The position numbers were made by a program, and so were the translations under genes. Below are positions 3,638 to 14,959 of a DNA stretch of 20,494 nt, one piece after another. The notes under the pieces are model-generated. The model ran no database searches. It was not told the origin of the DNA and was given only the letters and a program-made list of their open reading frames with translations. Position 1 is the first letter of the stretch. Each line of letters begins with the position of its first letter. The stretch comes from a virus: positions 1-20,494 of IMG/VR virus record IMGVR_UViG_3300044858_003120. One strand, given 5' to 3'.

Positions 3638-5688
3638 TTATAAACTGGTAGCCAGAATTGATTGGTTCCAACACGAATTTCAATGAAGTCATTGATCTGG
3701 TTGTTGGTTGCGGGGTTTGAGTTGGTGTGGTTGGTGGAGAAGTCTACAAACCCATCTACCACAAGATTGGTCTTCGCCGTTAATGTAGATGTGGCGGTCA
3801 AGGTGCCAGATGCTGTGACATTGGAGAAGGAGACGTTGTTAGTGGTTCCGAGTTCTATGGCATTGCGGAAATTGGCATTATTGGTATTGGTGAGGGCTGG
3901 GAGGGGGAGGCCAAGGTTGGTGCGGGTGATGGCGACATCGGCGGCGGCATTGGTGCCAACAAATGCTATTGGAGACAAAAGCTGCAATTCAACAGTGCGG
4001 ATTTGGAAAGACCCGCCTTCAGCAGCAATAAAGTTTTCTTCAAAATTGATCTCAAACCCAAAAGGCGGACTGCTTATATAAGAAGGAGTAAGCTGCGAAT
4101 ATTCAGACTCCGTAGATCCCACAACCGCCGATGCAAAAGTAACCGAATTCGATGACCCCAGCCCAATCGCCGTTCGGAAATTTGTGGCGTTGGTATTGGT
4201 TAGCCATGTGGCTCCGAGGCCGAGGTTGGTGCGGGTGATTGCTGCACCAGTGCTGTTGTTAGTTCCAAAAGAAAGCGCCAAGGTAGGAGCGTTTAGGCTA
4301 AGAGCACTATCAATGGTAACTCTATCAGGGGTTCCTTGCCAACCAAGTGCAACTCCCCCATTAGAAGACGCCGTAAAAGAAGCATTTGCCGCTCCAGATA
4401 AAACAGCCCCAAAAGTAACGGAATTGGTTGAACCAAGACCAATCGCCGTGCGAAAATTCGTGACGTTGGTGTTCGTGAGCCATGTTGCTCCGAGCGACAA
4501 GTTTGTTCTGCTTGCCGCCGCATTGGCTGCGGCGTTGGTGCCCGAAAAGAAGATGGGCTCAACATAAGAGATGTTGTCAGCCAATATCCACGCCCCACTG
4601 CGATATATCAACAAAACCGCTTCATCAAGCTGATTAAGAGTGATTAGGTTTGTTGCCGCGCCCAATTGCCTAATAGCCGTCACTGCGCTGGTTGTTTGAG
4701 CAAGATGGGTAATAGTAGCTCTATCTCCTTCAAATGTGGTTGCGGGATTTGTTGGAAGTGTCACCGTGTTGGTAATTCCCGAAACCGAAGGAGAAAGGCT
4801 GAACAGGAATAGATTGCGGCTATTTGTGGCGCTATTTGTTGATGTTCCAGTAACATTTGTCTGATATTGGACAGTTGTGGATATCGGGGCTGCTGCCCAG
4901 AAGTTGGTTGGACTCACCACATCTCCATTGGTATTCACCAAAACTGGATTGGTGTTGGAGCCGAATAGTGCTGCTTGGAAGTCGGCGGCGTTGACGTTGG
5001 TTAATCCGCTCCAAGGAAGGCCAAGATTGGTGCGGGTGGCGGCGACTGAACCAAAGGAGACTGGGACACCAAAAGAAGCGCCCTGTGCGCCGACAGAAAA
5101 AAGAGGCGCTCCAATATAACTAAAAGTTACAGACTGATTATTAGTTGCGCTAATACTAATAATTGAATTTGAAATAGAAAGGCTCCCAAATGTAATATTA
5201 CCAAATGCAACATTATTAGTTGCCCCGAGGCCAAGGTTGGTGCGGGTGATGGCTGCGGCTGCTGTAGTGCCAAAACCAACTCCATTTACGATTGTTAGGT
5301 TGGTGCTTGATACATACCAAACAACCGATCCGTTTCTATAATATCCAAAATCACTAGGGCCAGCGCCGACACCCCCAAATCCAGTATTTGTTTGTCCCAG
5401 TGTAAGGCTAAAGATTGAAGATGAAGCAACCTGTGTAGATCGAAGTGTTGCAAAAATGCCATCGTTGATTTCTCCAAGCCCAATGGCGTTACGGAAATTT
5501 GTAGCATCGGTGTTGGTAAGCGCAGACCAACCGAGACCGAGTCCTGTGCGAGCATTTGAAGCATCGGCGCTCCAGAAATTCGTGGGCTGGACTACGGCAT
5601 TGTTGGTTCCAACAAGAACATTTCGCGTTTGTCCGAAGCCCGAAACAACCAAGGCTCCACCGATAATAAGTGAGAGAATATATTTCAT
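3634..5688 (-). CDS. Repeat-rich tail-fibre-like protein with an N-terminal signal peptide
   Basis: The protein has 684 residues. I chose ATG at 5688 rather than the upstream TTG at 5709 because the protein then begins with a complete export signal: MKY, a hydrophobic core ILSLIIGGALVVSGFG, then Q-T-R. The body holds six diverged copies of an RTNLGLG...LTNTNATNFRTAIGLG unit, starting near residues 47, 149, 228, 403, 485 and 592. Such N-rich repeats are typical of phage fibre shafts. Residues ~290-380 match the beta module (NTVTLP, EGD, LLIYRSGAWIL) also found in the 1051-residue fibre. A signal peptide is unusual for a virion protein, which is assembled in the cytoplasm. It may instead be an uncleaved hydrophobic tip or a surface protein. 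It starts 2 bases after the 107-residue gene and ends in an ATGA overlap. Confidence 0.8.
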   Translation of the reverse strand: MKYILSLIIGGALVVSGFGQTRNVLVGTNNAVVQPTNFWSADASNARTGLGLGWSALTNTDATNFRNAIGLGEINDGIFATLRSTQVASSSIFSLTLGQTNTGFGGVGAGPSDFGYYRNGSVVWYVSSTNLTIVNGVGFGTTAAAAITRTNLGLGATNNVAFGNITFGSLSISNSIISISATNNQSVTFSYIGAPLFSVGAQGASFGVPVSFGSVAATRTNLGLPWSGLTNVNAADFQAALFGSNTNPVLVNTNGDVVSPTNFWAAAPISTTVQYQTNVTGTSTNSATNSRNLFLFSLSPSVSGITNTVTLPTNPATTFEGDRATITHLAQTTSAVTAIRQLGAATNLITLNQLDEAVLLIYRSGAWILADNISYVEPIFFSGTNAAANAAASRTNLSLGATWLTNTNVTNFRTAIGLGSTNSVTFGAVLSGAANASFTASSNGGVALGWQGTPDRVTIDSALSLNAPTLALSFGTNNSTGAAITRTNLGLGATWLTNTNATNFRTAIGLGSSNSVTFASAVVGSTESEYSQLTPSYISSPPFGFEINFEENFIAAEGGSFQIRTVELQLLSPIAFVGTNAAADVAITRTNLGLPLPALTNTNNANFRNAIELGTTNNVSFSNVTASGTLTATSTLTAKTNLVVDGFVDFSTNHTNSNPATNNQINDFIEIRVGTNQFWLPVYK
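3850..5580 (-). repeat. Six diverged coding repeats inside the 684-residue fibre gene
   Basis: The repeat unit encodes RTNLGLG, a short linker and LTNT(N/D)ATNFR(T/N)AIGLG. Some copies keep near-identical DNA, read here on the plus strand: GCCAAGGTTGGTGCGGGTGA near 3910 and 5230, with close variants near 4219 and 5022. Other copies (near 4500 and 5540) share the protein pattern but use different codons. The mix of conserved and diverged copies suggests old duplications with occasional homogenisation. The near-identical segments could recombine and change fibre length. Confidence 0.7.
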
Positions 5689-12338: not shown

Positions 12339-12508
12339 GGTGTCCAATACTTAATCACACGTTCAAGTATATGTCCAATCCCGCTCCATCCATGGTGGGG
12401 GTGGTAATGGCAGGCCCATTTCAATGGAGGGTTTGACTCATCGTTTTTGATGAGGTAGATTCCCTCTGCATCGGGTTTTGTATTATTGTAATCGTTCCAA
12501 GTAATCAT
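12320..12508 (-). CDS. DUF551-like small protein
   Basis: The 62-residue product reads MITWNDYNNTKPDAEGIYLI, then a middle segment rich in His and Trp (HYHPHHGW), and ends VIKYWTPWPD. The plan of an N-terminal W....P..G.Y/V...., then a C-terminal V..W.P.P, matches DUF551-type proteins, short phage and enterobacterial proteins of unknown function. It is the first gene of the leftward helicase operon. It faces the HNH gene head to head with only 7 bases between the two start codons, so its promoter must lie inside the neighbouring coding sequence. Confidence 0.6.
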   Translation of the reverse strand: MITWNDYNNTKPDAEGIYLIKNDESNPPLKWACHYHPHHGWSGIGHILERVIKYWTPWPDSK

Positions 12509-12515
12509 AGTAGGT

Positions 12516-12920
12516 ATGACAAGAAAAACTCCACTTCGTTCAAAAACCCCATTAAGCAGGAATCAGCCACTTAAGCGCAGCGGAAGGTTGCGGAGCGCAT
12601 CCCCCAAACGCCAGCGTGAATACAATGAGTATGCAAAGGTAAAGAAAGCCTACTTGGCACTGCATCCCATATGCGAGAAATGTAAGAAGGCGAAGAGTCA
12701 AGACATCCATCATAAGGCGGGTAGGATTGGTCGCTACCTTTGCGACTATAGCCTGTTTGCCGCGCTTTGTCGGGGATGCCATGATTGGTGCCACGCTAAC
12801 GGGCGCGAAGCCCGCAAACAAGGTTGGATCATTGATACATTTCATACTCTTCAAGATCCCTCTCCAGAAGCTTCATCAGTTCAATCTCATAGCCAAAATC
12901 AGGTTCATACTGCCGAATAA
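12516..12920 (+). CDS. HNH endonuclease with zinc-binding cysteines
   Basis: The protein has 134 residues. The first ~35 are very basic (RKTPLRSKTPLSRN...KRSGRLRS), a usual start for phage HNH proteins and likely to contact DNA. The catalytic region has CEKC (53-56), DIHHKAGR (63-70), with the HH pair as the active centre, and LCRGCHDWCHANG (84-96), whose second Cys pair completes the zinc site. It may cut DNA during packaging or replication, or be a free-standing homing nuclease. Unlike its neighbours it runs rightward alone. Its last ~30 codons overlap the lipoprotein gene on the other strand and carry no family motif. Confidence 0.82.
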   Translation: MTRKTPLRSKTPLSRNQPLKRSGRLRSASPKRQREYNEYAKVKKAYLALHPICEKCKKAKSQDIHHKAGRIGRYLCDYSLFAALCRGCHDWCHANGREARKQGWIIDTFHTLQDPSPEASSVQSHSQNQVHTAE

Positions 12921-13119: not shown

Positions 13120-13739
13120 AGCTCCTCCTCGCTTTCGCTAACCCATCTGCTGCCTGTATGCTCGCAGCTAAACTCTTGGCTAAAGACCCTCCAGTCGGGT
13201 TTCATGGGGAATTGTTTGGCAATAAACGATCCCCCATCCATCCACAACACACGATTGTTGGGTTGTAAAAAATATTGACCACCTTCTCCCACCAGCACAT
13301 GACCGCACTTATGCCCAGCCGCCATCTCGCCGTAGCCAGAGGTATAATGAGGCCCGAAGCACCAGTCCAAGGTAAACATATACTTTGCTTTTTCAAAGGT
13401 TTTGTTCTTTAGCATTACGTTCGCTGCCCGATTCTTGCAGTAGTCCAAGATGTTAACAGAGCAATAGTAGCTCATAGAATCCCATAGCTGTATCCAATCT
13501 AGTGGGTAAGACGATCCTCCCGTATCCTCTGCATGGAGATAATGGATTGGAACACGGGCATGCTGGCTTCCGTATTCAGTCATTACACTAAACAACCCAC
13601 ACCGTTGGGGAATCGAGGTGAAGGCAAATACCTCGACAAGTTGTCTTTCCCTGCTGACACATGGTTCAAGATCGTAAAAGAATCCCTCATCTACAAAAGC
13701 AAAGAAGGTGGGGATATTGACGTTGAGATAGTTACTCAT
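13089..13739 (-). CDS. Unknown 216-residue phage protein, Trp/Tyr/Cys-rich
   Basis: The product starts MSNYLNVNIPTFFAFVDEGF. It has several aromatic-rich beta-type segments, including VEVFAFTSIPQRCGLFSVMT, WIQLWDSMSYYCSVNILDYC, YMFTLDWCFG, GHKCGHVLVGEGGQYFLQPNNRVLW and a C-terminal SQEFSCEHTG. I recall similar proteins only as hypothetical phage proteins. No signal peptide or catalytic motif is evident. Its ATG overlaps the upstream stop (ATGA) and its end overlaps the lipoprotein gene, so all three leftward genes are one transcription unit. Confidence 0.75.
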   Translation of the reverse strand: MSNYLNVNIPTFFAFVDEGFFYDLEPCVSRERQLVEVFAFTSIPQRCGLFSVMTEYGSQHARVPIHYLHAEDTGGSSYPLDWIQLWDSMSYYCSVNILDYCKNRAANVMLKNKTFEKAKYMFTLDWCFGPHYTSGYGEMAAGHKCGHVLVGEGGQYFLQPNNRVLWMDGGSFIAKQFPMKPDWRVFSQEFSCEHTGSRWVSESEEELWFYDFKEQG

Positions 13740-14017
13740 TGGTCGGCAATTTTACGCAGGAGTCTGGTCTGTTCCCGCAGTTCATAAAGTTGATTGTTGG
13801 CTGCAATCTCCGCACTCATACGGGCGTTTGATTCCGCCAACTCCGCATTAATACGACGAAGGGTAGAAAGATAGGTGTCCTCTTTGGGTTTGATATCCAC
13901 AGATCCACTGATGACCTGTATCCGCCCCGAATCCAAATCATAGACTGTCCCGTTGAACGATCCGTCTTGTGCCTGAATATTAGCTGTTAGTAGTAATACT
14001 ATTAGTAGTGGTTTCAT
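13736..14017 (-). CDS. Exported small coiled-coil protein
   Basis: I set the start at ATG 14017. The 93-residue product then begins MKPLLIVLLLTANIQAQDGS, a textbook signal peptide with likely cleavage at A-Q. Next come a short beta segment (NGTVYDLDSGRIQVISGSVDI) and a coiled coil of ~45 residues (TLRRINAELAESNARMSAEI...LREQTRLLRKI). The frame stays open to 14197 (ATG also at 14050 and 14182), but those starts would bury the signal. A periplasmic coiled coil followed two genes later by a proline-rich lipoprotein recalls an inner/outer spanin pair, though i-spanins normally keep an uncleaved anchor. It ends in an ATGA overlap. Confidence 0.68.
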   Translation of the reverse strand: MKPLLIVLLLTANIQAQDGSFNGTVYDLDSGRIQVISGSVDIKPKEDTYLSTLRRINAELAESNARMSAEIAANNQLYELREQTRLLRKIADQ

Positions 14018-14024
14018 AAAGAGA

Positions 14025-14123
14025 TTGGAAGCGGGGTGGCGCAACTTCATTGGCCCCCAAGCCTTTGAAGTTTTCGCATTTTCATGCCGAGTCTCCCCGC
14101 CTCCAAAAATTGGGAGAGGACTC
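14025..14123 (-). promoter_or_regulatory. Structured leader upstream of the leftward exported-protein gene, candidate cis-regulatory RNA
   Basis: Arms 14025-14036 and 14095-14106 pair over 12 positions. The single A-C mismatch on the plus strand becomes a G-U pair on the minus strand, so the stem is complete in leftward RNA. It encloses two hairpins: 14043-14048 with 14067-14072 (plus inner 14050-14053 with 14057-14060), and 14076-14079 with 14084-14087. Together they form a three-way-junction shape. A competing hairpin, 14089-14097 with 14112-14123, shares bases with the main stem. The structure ends 7 bases before the ATG at 14017, so folding could control access to the start. It matches no riboswitch class that I recognise. 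Confidence 0.42.
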
Positions 14124-14174
14124 AGGTCGCTCAACCCCGCATTCGCAGTGTTGCCCTCAATGATCCCCTCCGAA

Positions 14175-14188
14175 GTATCCATAGATAC
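14175..14188. repeat. Small perfect hairpin with 5-base stem
   Basis: GTATC and GATAC flank a 4-base loop. It sits between the structured leader and the GC-rich hairpin at 14199-14211 and may form part of the same leftward leader RNA. Too small to interpret alone. Confidence 0.4.
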
Positions 14189-14198
14189 ATAGACCACA

Positions 14199-14226
14199 GC
14201 CCCTTCGGGGCGTTCAATGTTTTTTT
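14199..14226 (+). terminator. GC hairpin followed by a T-run, possible rightward terminator
   Basis: GCCCC-TTC-GGGGC (14199-14211) forms a tight hairpin. It is followed on the plus strand by 8 bases and then seven Ts (14220-14226). The gap between stem and T-run is longer than in an ideal intrinsic terminator. No rightward gene ends nearby; the closest is the HNH gene at 12920. It could therefore stop read-through from that gene, end a short plus-strand RNA, or simply be a leader hairpin for the leftward genes. Confidence 0.4.
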
Positions 14227-14258
14227 GAGCATTTTTCCGCTTGCCATGTCTTACCCTT

Positions 14259-14289
14259 TGTGAGAAGTTAAAACAGTCTGATGTGAGAA
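14259..14289 (+). repeat. Two direct copies of TGTGAGAA
   Basis: TGTGAGAA occurs at 14259-14266 and again at 14282-14289, 23 bases apart start to start, about two helical turns. The second copy is the outer end of the left arm of the inverted repeat. Its inverse (TTCTCA) occurs at 14387-14392. The arrangement resembles a set of operator or initiator sites in front of the rightward replication-type genes. Confidence 0.4.
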
Positions 14290-14398
14290 CCCAGACGATT
14301 TAATATGAACACTACTCTAACAATAAATATTAATCTGCCATTCAAGTGGCGGGGTGAGGGAGCATCTAGCAGTGTTCATTGTCGGGTTCTCAATCATC
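14280..14398 (+). repeat. Nested inverted repeat upstream of the rightward operon
   Basis: TGAGAACCC (14284-14292) pairs perfectly with GGGTTCTCA (14384-14392), and ATGAACACT (14305-14313) pairs with AGTGTTCAT (14371-14379). GAC 14294-14296 pairs with GTC 14381-14383, and GATG 14280-14283 with CATC 14395-14398. Inside, CTGCCA (14335-14340) and TGGCGG (14347-14352) close a 6-base loop with one G-U pair that exists only in plus-strand RNA. The whole unit is ~119 bases and ends 39 bases before ATG 14438. It could be a regulatory leader RNA, a protein-binding array or a replication origin; the sequence cannot decide between these. Confidence 0.55.
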
Positions 14399-14421
14399 CC
14401 ACGCCCCGTCATTTGAGTGGC
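14339..14421 (+). repeat. Imperfect 12-base direct repeat, CATTYRAGTGGC
   Basis: CATTCAAGTGGC (14339-14350) and CATTTGAGTGGC (14410-14421) match at 10 of 12 positions and are 71 bases apart. The first lies in the inner hairpin of the inverted repeat and the second just after the outer arm, close to the rightward start codon. They could be repeat protein-binding sites. Confidence 0.4.
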
Positions 14422-14437
14422 AATTTTATTTATTGCT

Positions 14438-14959
14438 ATGAAAAAGAATCAAACAGTCTATAGGCGGGTAACTAGGGGCGGATTTGTCCAGCTATCAAAT
14501 GATCTCGTAAGAGATAAGAGGCTGTCATTCGGGGCGAGGGGCTTGCTGGCTATGGTGCTATCCAACGCCGATGAGTGGGTGGCAAATCGGGCTTATTTTG
14601 TAAATAACACCACAGACGGGGCCAACAGGGTCAAGACCTACTTTCGGGAATTGGAAAGTCTCGGCTATGTAAAGTATGAGCTTTCTGGCGGAGGTAAGGG
14701 AGGATTCTGCAATACTTGGACATTTTATGATGCGCCAGTTGCGGAAGATCAGCGTAGCAATCGCACAAATTGGCGTTCCCCTCTTTCCGTGGTCAAGGTT
14801 TCTAGCGCACGGGAAATTCCGTCCACGGGAAACTTCGACCACATTATAACACCAATATCAGAGAATACCAATATACAGAATACAATATATGATGAGAATA
14901 TTGTATCGGGTTATGGGGATGAGGAGGAGTATCAGGGAGAAATTCGGGGATTGTGGTAA
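14438..14959 (+). CDS. Winged-helix DNA-binding protein, replication-initiation type
   Basis: I use ATG 14438 rather than GTG 14417. The product has 173 residues. Residues ~15-82 (GGFVQLSNDLVRDKRLSFGARGLLAMVLSN...NRVKTYFRELESLGYVKYE) match the winged-helix domain found at the front of phage replication proteins and related regulators. The FVQLSNDLVRDKRLSFGARG lead is especially typical. The rest is disordered, ending in an acidic tail (YGDEEEYQGE) that could contact a partner. As first gene after the inverted repeat at 14280-14398 it is the best candidate for an origin-binding or operon-regulating protein. It has no helicase or primase motifs. No Shine-Dalgarno site is visible. Confidence 0.75.
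   Translation: MKKNQTVYRRVTRGGFVQLSNDLVRDKRLSFGARGLLAMVLSNADEWVANRAYFVNNTTDGANRVKTYFRELESLGYVKYELSGGGKGGFCNTWTFYDAPVAEDQRSNRTNWRSPLSVVKVSSAREIPSTGNFDHIITPISENTNIQNTIYDENIVSGYGDEEEYQGEIRGLW

Follow-up and report, generated by a model that had tools for sequence, protein, structure and literature searches.

A covarying three-way-junction RNA at the end of an open phage operon leader and its possible role as a translation-coupling gate

In the window (the whole stretch of viral DNA analysed, 20,494 nucleotides of IMG/VR record IMGVR_UViG_3300044858_003120), the minus-strand RNA in front of a gene cluster can fold almost up to the first start codon, and the reading frame across the fold stays open. 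The question is therefore whether this stretch is an RNA element, coding sequence or both, and what it could do for the genes behind it. The initial annotation had described a stem of 12 positions around two hairpins as the leader of an exported phage protein, possibly of a switch type, with the caveat that the open frame might be coding.

The three-way junction of module C

The minimum-energy fold of the minus-strand RNA consisted of a stem of 12 positions, one of them G-U (14106-14095 with 14036-14025), around two inner hairpins (14087-14076 and 14072-14043). It matched in its coordinates the arrangement first described, including its end 7 nt before ATG 14017. We refer to this element as module C. 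Its parts and the gene behind it are as follows.

14095..14106 (-): closing stem, 5' strand (fold and covariation)
14076..14087 (-): hairpin 1, GCAT GAAA ATGC (compensatory changes in L021 and L055)
14043..14072 (-): hairpin 2, with an internal loop and a G-rich apical loop (both parts compensatorily replaced in L019, L031, L055 and L105)
14025..14036 (-): closing stem, 3' strand (fold and covariation)
14018..14024 (-): 7-nt spacer TCTCTTT without a Shine-Dalgarno (SD) sequence (6-8 nt in relatives)
13736..14017 (-): first gene of the operon, a 93-aa protein with a signal-peptide-like start and a coiled-coil-like rest (pN/pS 0.22)

Compared with dinucleotide shuffles, the element had a folding z of -2.3, the 246-nt region one of -3.0 and 14182-14000 one of -3.1, and only 0-4 of 200 shuffles of these three regions folded as well, so the energy comparison that the initial annotation had called for came out in favour of a structure. 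The plus strand of the module C region also folds well when taken alone, and energy by itself therefore gives no strand. The RNA strand was assigned as minus because, where relatives differ on one side of the closing stem alone, the change is G-U/G-C or G-U/A-U and pairs in minus-strand RNA only (the G-U becomes A-C on the opposite strand). The single imperfect pair of the window had been read in the same way, and the variants of the relatives agree with that reading.

Homologues were collected by a search with the exported protein, which gave 33 IMG/VR loci, and by a DNA pattern and a covariance model, which added more; a terminase search for relatives found none, and a DnaB search returned matches below 60% identity only, the best at about 35%. 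The covariance model located module C in more than 40 related IMG/VR phage leaders. There was one copy per leader, seen once per contig and always as the last module, and 6-8 nt separated it from the ATG that opens the operon, whichever ORF came first. Among 43 distinct copies, in an alignment that was fitted to the model and in which 2 of the 45 rows are antisense matches, 98.5% of cells were paired and 17 of the 27 pairs had changed on both sides. None of 500 shuffles reached any of five covariation measures, and pairing fell to 35-57% when the partners were slid. In 17 copies chosen by hand, 96.8% of cells paired and 8 pairs had changed on both sides. Hairpin 1 was replaced by CGACT/AGTCG in L021 and by CTGA/TCAG in L055. 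The most distant clear copies, in L055 and L092, kept the layout with quite different hairpins, and in these two and L105 the hairpin sequences and loops were wholly replaced. Compensatory changes, which the initial annotation had proposed to look for with a covariance model, are thus abundant, and the three-way junction of module C is a real structured RNA at the head of the transcript.

No Rfam family matched module C at the gathering threshold, and the best matches by E-value were unrelated families; the earlier statement that the form fits no known riboswitch class was borne out, and a riboswitch or other known RNA class was rejected at both the gathering and the E-value thresholds. Related DNA was absent among 50,697 phage records, and a weak search of four Verrucomicrobiota genomes found no module C.

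The switch-type reading fared differently. The competing hairpin that overlaps the closing stem does occur in the window, where it is nearly equal, 1.3 kcal/mol less stable, and leaves the closing stem at P = 0.74. It is favoured in L008 only (closing stem P = 0.16) and is absent or negligible elsewhere: 31 leaders were folded, and in all 29 besides the window and L008 the closing stem had P of at least 0.92. The competing strand is missing from leaders without module B (described below), including those that carry module C alone. Because nearly all relatives lack an appreciable competing pairing, the switch-type leader is unsupported, and a conserved switch was rejected. A small internal ORF with an SD inside module C (MKMRKLQRLGGQ, ending in a stop) was also rejected, its ATG being lost in L021 and L055.

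The 93-aa protein had no Pfam or PHROGs match; its signal-peptide-like segment begins directly after ATG 14017, and no SD sequence precedes this ATG in the window. An exported gene does lie downstream, as had been described. However, module C has no particular link to it, because the module also precedes a different first ORF (MNRQEAIQL...) in L012, L022, L097 and L164. Further along the cluster, starts and stops overlap by 4 nt at 13739/13736, 11929/11926, 3637/3634 and 3272/3269.

The leader frame and its promoter-like start

Upstream of module C, a promoter-like element and a conserved ATG mark the beginning of the leader frame.

14218..14229 (-): A-rich tract AAAAAAACA, UP-element-like, 5' of the -35-like hexamer (A-rich in nearly all 30 distinct contexts)
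14212..14217 (-): -35-like hexamer TTGAAC (constant spacing in 30/30 contexts)
14189..14194 (-): -10-like hexamer GTCTAT (same arrangement at other genes)
14180..14182 (-): conserved ATG at which transcription is predicted to begin and which would open the leader ORF as a leaderless start codon (fixed spacing, open frame)
14018..14182 (-): leader ORF MDTSEGIIEGNTANAGLSDLSPLPIFGGGETRHENAKTSKAWGPMKLRHPASNLF, sharing the frame of the exported ORF in the window (stop count)

The spacing of TTGAAC-N17-GTCTAT[GT] was fixed in all 30 distinct leader contexts despite a varying spacer sequence, and the ATG followed GTCTAT by 6 nt in all 30. This constant spacing suggests a leaderless mRNA, and transcription therefore likely starts at the ATG; the promoter-like element is placed as would be expected for a transcript that begins with its start codon. 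Leaderless starts look like a general feature in these phages, because identical geometry precedes ordinary conserved genes: TTGAAC-N17-GTCATA-N6-ATG lies before the window gene starting at 12508, and a like arrangement lies before conserved genes in L105, L116, L201, L137 and L207. The window contains 10 sites with at most 2 mismatches from TTGAAC-N17-GTCTAT, against 1.6 expected. Members of a TTGAAC-N17-GTC(T)A family with an ECF-like look were seen near start codons at 12508-12543 (-), 15573 (+), 18957 (+) and 10919 (-). At 12516-12920 (+), an HNH-like ORF lies opposite the minus-strand cluster and overlaps the promoter-like site of gene 12508.

From the conserved ATG to module C (up to 494 nt), all 30 distinct leaders had 0 stops in frame, compared with totals of 122 and 135 for the two alternative frames; the corresponding numbers of distinct contexts were 0, 61 and 79. 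These counts are not independent, owing to common ancestry, which the other two frames share equally. For the longest leaders, only 2-6 of 2000 simple shuffles kept the frame open. The open frame is thus under strong selection, and because of this the leader is very probably translated.

The product of this translation appears to be free to vary. By one method, pN/pS was 0.82 in module C and 1.04 in module E, compared with 0.22 in the exported gene (its last 50 codons in 30 relatives), so the purifying selection on amino acids that marks ordinary coding sequence was not seen in the leader frame. The pS was 0.15 in module C versus 0.55 in the exported gene. Strong codon conservation, which the initial annotation had named together with missing compensatory changes as evidence against an RNA, was thus not found, and the outcome favours RNA. 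The caveat about coding sequence holds in that openness is strongly selected; it does not hold for the amino acids, which are unconstrained. Accordingly, a plain non-coding RNA was abandoned after the stop-codon count and ordinary protein domains after the pN/pS comparison. In the leaders compared, fold and readability are both kept and the protein sequence is not.

The position at which the leader frame ends was also consistent. None of the 41 leaders that lack an HNH gene had its first stop 5' of module C, and every frame ended near or overlapping the downstream start, or ran on into it. The frame was fused in frame to the first gene in 20 leaders, including the window, and ended in an ATGA overlap in 6; relative to the downstream ATG, the other stops lay at -30 to -36 (8 leaders), -10/-11 (2), -49 (2) and +32/+35 (3). 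A ribosome following any of these frames would have moved beyond the 5' strand of the closing stem. In L009 (about 4320-4735) and L168, an HNH-AP2 homing endonuclease ORF sits exactly at the leaderless ATG. Its stop is overlapped by the ATG of a new frame, 8 nt upstream in L009 and as ATGA in L168, and these new frames are open into module C over 185 nt (L009) and 305 nt (L168). Ribosome traffic to module C thus appears to be kept even across an inserted gene.

Module B and the chain of exchangeable modules

Between the promoter-like element and module C, leaders carry zero to several structured modules, which are swapped mosaically among close relatives. The window has one such extra module.

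14113..14171 (-): structured module B (33 distinct copies)

Its closing stem is formed by GGAGGGGAT and GTCCTCTCC and encloses an invariant CATTGAGGG (14162-14154), a variable hairpin and an invariant AGCGACCTGA (14131-14122). In 33 chosen distinct copies, 95% of cells were paired and the covariation score was 0.646 versus 0.191 in shuffled alignments, the number of pairs with double changes alone not exceeding the shuffles. Modules B and C are two covarying RNA families absent from Rfam.

Module B was in phase and free of stops in all 16 leader copies, compared with 22 of 45 copies elsewhere. Many further phage contigs carry the pattern, frequently behind stop codons and next to tRNA genes. 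It also occurs in Verrucomicrobiota genomes (an Akkermansia MAG, Spartobacteria, Ereboglobus and Opitutaceae); it lies among tRNA genes in at least L174, L177 and L178. The genomes carrying module B are Verrucomicrobiota, from which we infer that the phages infect this phylum. The combined pattern of promoter and module B was not found in 388 genomes of the phylum. A match of the pattern in L175 (Sarcina) lay inside coding sequence and was taken as chance, and the idea that the modules are tRNAs was rejected, ARAGORN having found none in the leaders.

Where module B adjoins tRNA genes or lies between them, in Verrucomicrobiota genomes as well as in phage contigs (L174, L177, L178, L121 and L073), the copies frequently finish with ACCA or ACCT followed by a T-run, like the neighbouring tRNAs. 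In three other phages (L057, L066 and L122), an open frame terminates with module B, and the stop codon of that frame overlaps the start of the following gene (CTATGA); judged from these contigs, translated leaders of this kind may extend beyond the present phage group.

A predicted gate, rival explanations and related systems

We consider it reasonably probable, from these sequence comparisons, that the operon leader is translated from a leaderless AUG and that module C is its gate, opened by the ribosomes that enter there. In the mechanism that we infer, RNA polymerase would start at or next to the conserved ATG 14182, giving an mRNA whose 5' end is AUG, and ribosomes would load at this AUG without a Shine-Dalgarno sequence. 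They would then read through zero to several in-frame structured modules (module B in the window) before meeting module C. With the very stable 12-bp stem lying 6-8 nt ahead of it, the first gene's SD-less start would be shut off, and a lone 30S subunit should fail there; the predicted folds are consistent with this closed state, the stem having P of at least 0.92 in 29 of 31 leaders. A ribosome translating into module C would melt the stem, after which translation could restart at the downstream ATG following the nearby stop or, where the frames coincide as in the window, simply read on.

This gate model fits the start/stop overlaps of the cluster, the scarcity of SD sequences and a report that some Verrucomicrobiota are SD-scarce (PMC10783764). 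Several points stand against it. The fused leaders (20 of 41) exceed one third, though they are related, and an N-terminally extended product may be made. Efficient coupling usually involves shorter distances to the start than those of the stops at -30 to -49, and Rho polarity or mRNA stability, in place of module C, could be the cause of the selection against stops. The model also gives no reason for the modules besides C.

Four other explanations were weighed, each of which misses at least one main observation. The leader ORF could be the true N-terminal part of the first gene, with the modules as a variable extension whose stems are tolerated or serve mRNA stability. The fused frames, that of the window among them, and a divergent locus (L180) with a continuous 178-aa ORF and no ATG at the usual place would agree with this. 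However, the frame is unfused in 21 of 41 leaders, the leader pN/pS of about 0.8-1 contrasts with 0.22 in the exported part, and the signal-peptide-like segment begins right after ATG 14017, which makes such an extension unlikely. We regard as quite unlikely a reading of the modules as palindromic RNA/DNA elements, mobile or selfish, that insert in frame into a translated leader, with module C as the oldest insertion: a functionless insertion would not be kept in every leader, once per contig and at a fixed distance to the start codon. The mosaic swaps between close relatives, the occurrence of module B at unrelated sites (intergenic regions and tRNA arrays, with regular in-frame placement in leaders only) and the HNH homing endonuclease gene at the same site in two phages speak for such elements, and this reading could account for module B and the other modules while being compatible with a gate role of module C.

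The leader could also be a transcriptional device, such as an attenuator that responds to leader translation or an antitermination RNA of the put type known from phage HK022. Such a device would agree with the place of the folded RNA, no more than about 165 nt into the transcript for a long gene cluster, and with CAATTTTT following the module B stem. It is nevertheless very unlikely, since a put-like element needs no open frame, yet openness is strongly selected, and a terminator scan for a GC-rich hairpin plus U-run, which covered short loops only, gave 0 sites in 13900-14460. Least probable, and likewise very unlikely, is a ligand- or protein-sensing leader, that is, a riboswitch or autoregulation by an operon product, in which module C binds the ligand. 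Unpaired conserved segments (GGGGAGAC and GCGCCACC), the G-rich apical loop and the strong nucleotide constraint in module C expressed by its low pS are what such a sensor would be expected to have, but there is no conserved alternative pairing and no Rfam match, the hairpins and loops are fully replaced in the three divergent copies, and two unrelated first genes follow the module.

The gate model has counterparts among known systems. In class 1 integron cassette arrays, a short translated leader (ORF-11) lies next to attC hairpins, structured elements with an influence on how the following gene is translated. The present leader is likewise short, translated in our reading and placed beside structured RNA elements, whereas its modules carry no genes, save for the HNH gene in L009 and L168. 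The put antitermination RNA of HK022 is structured and lies within about 100 nt of the 5' end of a phage operon transcript; it resembles our leader in that position, and differs from it in that the leader has a preserved open frame, a three-way junction right at the start codon and no known terminators to overcome. Rickettsia palindromic elements are palindromes that occur both in frame within ORFs and in regions of stable RNA. They are mentioned in a MITE review (PMC10969869). Our modules share this double occurrence but occupy one fixed operon-head locus per phage, with a universal terminal module.

Translational coupling through RNA unfolding is established for coat and lysis of phage MS2 and for rpmI-rplT of Escherichia coli (reviewed in PMC12548453). 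As in these systems, a start codon hidden by structure would become usable upon translation of an upstream frame, here as deduced from sequence. Unlike in them, the upstream frame has no conserved product and an apparent 5'-terminal AUG start, structured modules are exchangeable, and the gate is a conserved three-way junction. GOLLD and ROOL, phage-borne structured RNAs whose function is not known (PMC12286853), are comparable only to module B and the upstream type-2 RNA; the modules differ from them in having no Rfam match, in their size of 60-90 nt and in lying in frame 5' of an ATG.

A leaderless, translated chain of exchangeable RNA modules that ends in a conserved three-way-junction gate might represent a new class of gene-control leader, selected for frame and fold and not for protein, in which at least one module (B) also exists as an independent RNA family, found in Verrucomicrobiota phages and tRNA arrays and having its own function; we advance this wider proposal tentatively. 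Such a leader would separate selection for being translated from selection on the product, the modules staying readable and folded while the amino acids drift. More than 40 natural variants make coupling and RNA unfolding by ribosomes testable, in SD-poor hosts whose operon translation is little understood, and module B ties the phage leaders to bacterial tRNA arrays.

The region upstream of the leader also contains structured sequence. At 14260-14445 of the window, between the promoter and a divergent replication-initiation gene that starts near 14440 on the plus strand, long inverted repeats are interleaved in pseudoknot order: TGCCACTCAAATGACGGGG with CCCCGCCACTTGAATGGCA, TGAGAACCC with GGGTTCTCA, and ATGAACACTGCT with AGTAGTGTTCAT. 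In an alignment of 9 variants, compensatory changes were seen in the third pair (L007, L012, L013 and L027) and in the first (L039 and L055). Relatives without that region have, in front of the leader, a conserved non-coding stretch that is itself roughly 400-580 nt long, with its own TTGACT promoter-like sequence and numerous predicted stems (L018 at about 4270-4800; also L004, L014, L016, L028, L032 and L051). It had no Rfam match, and 18 sequences gave 102 alifold pairs, 11 of them with double changes, which makes this stretch a candidate large phage RNA.
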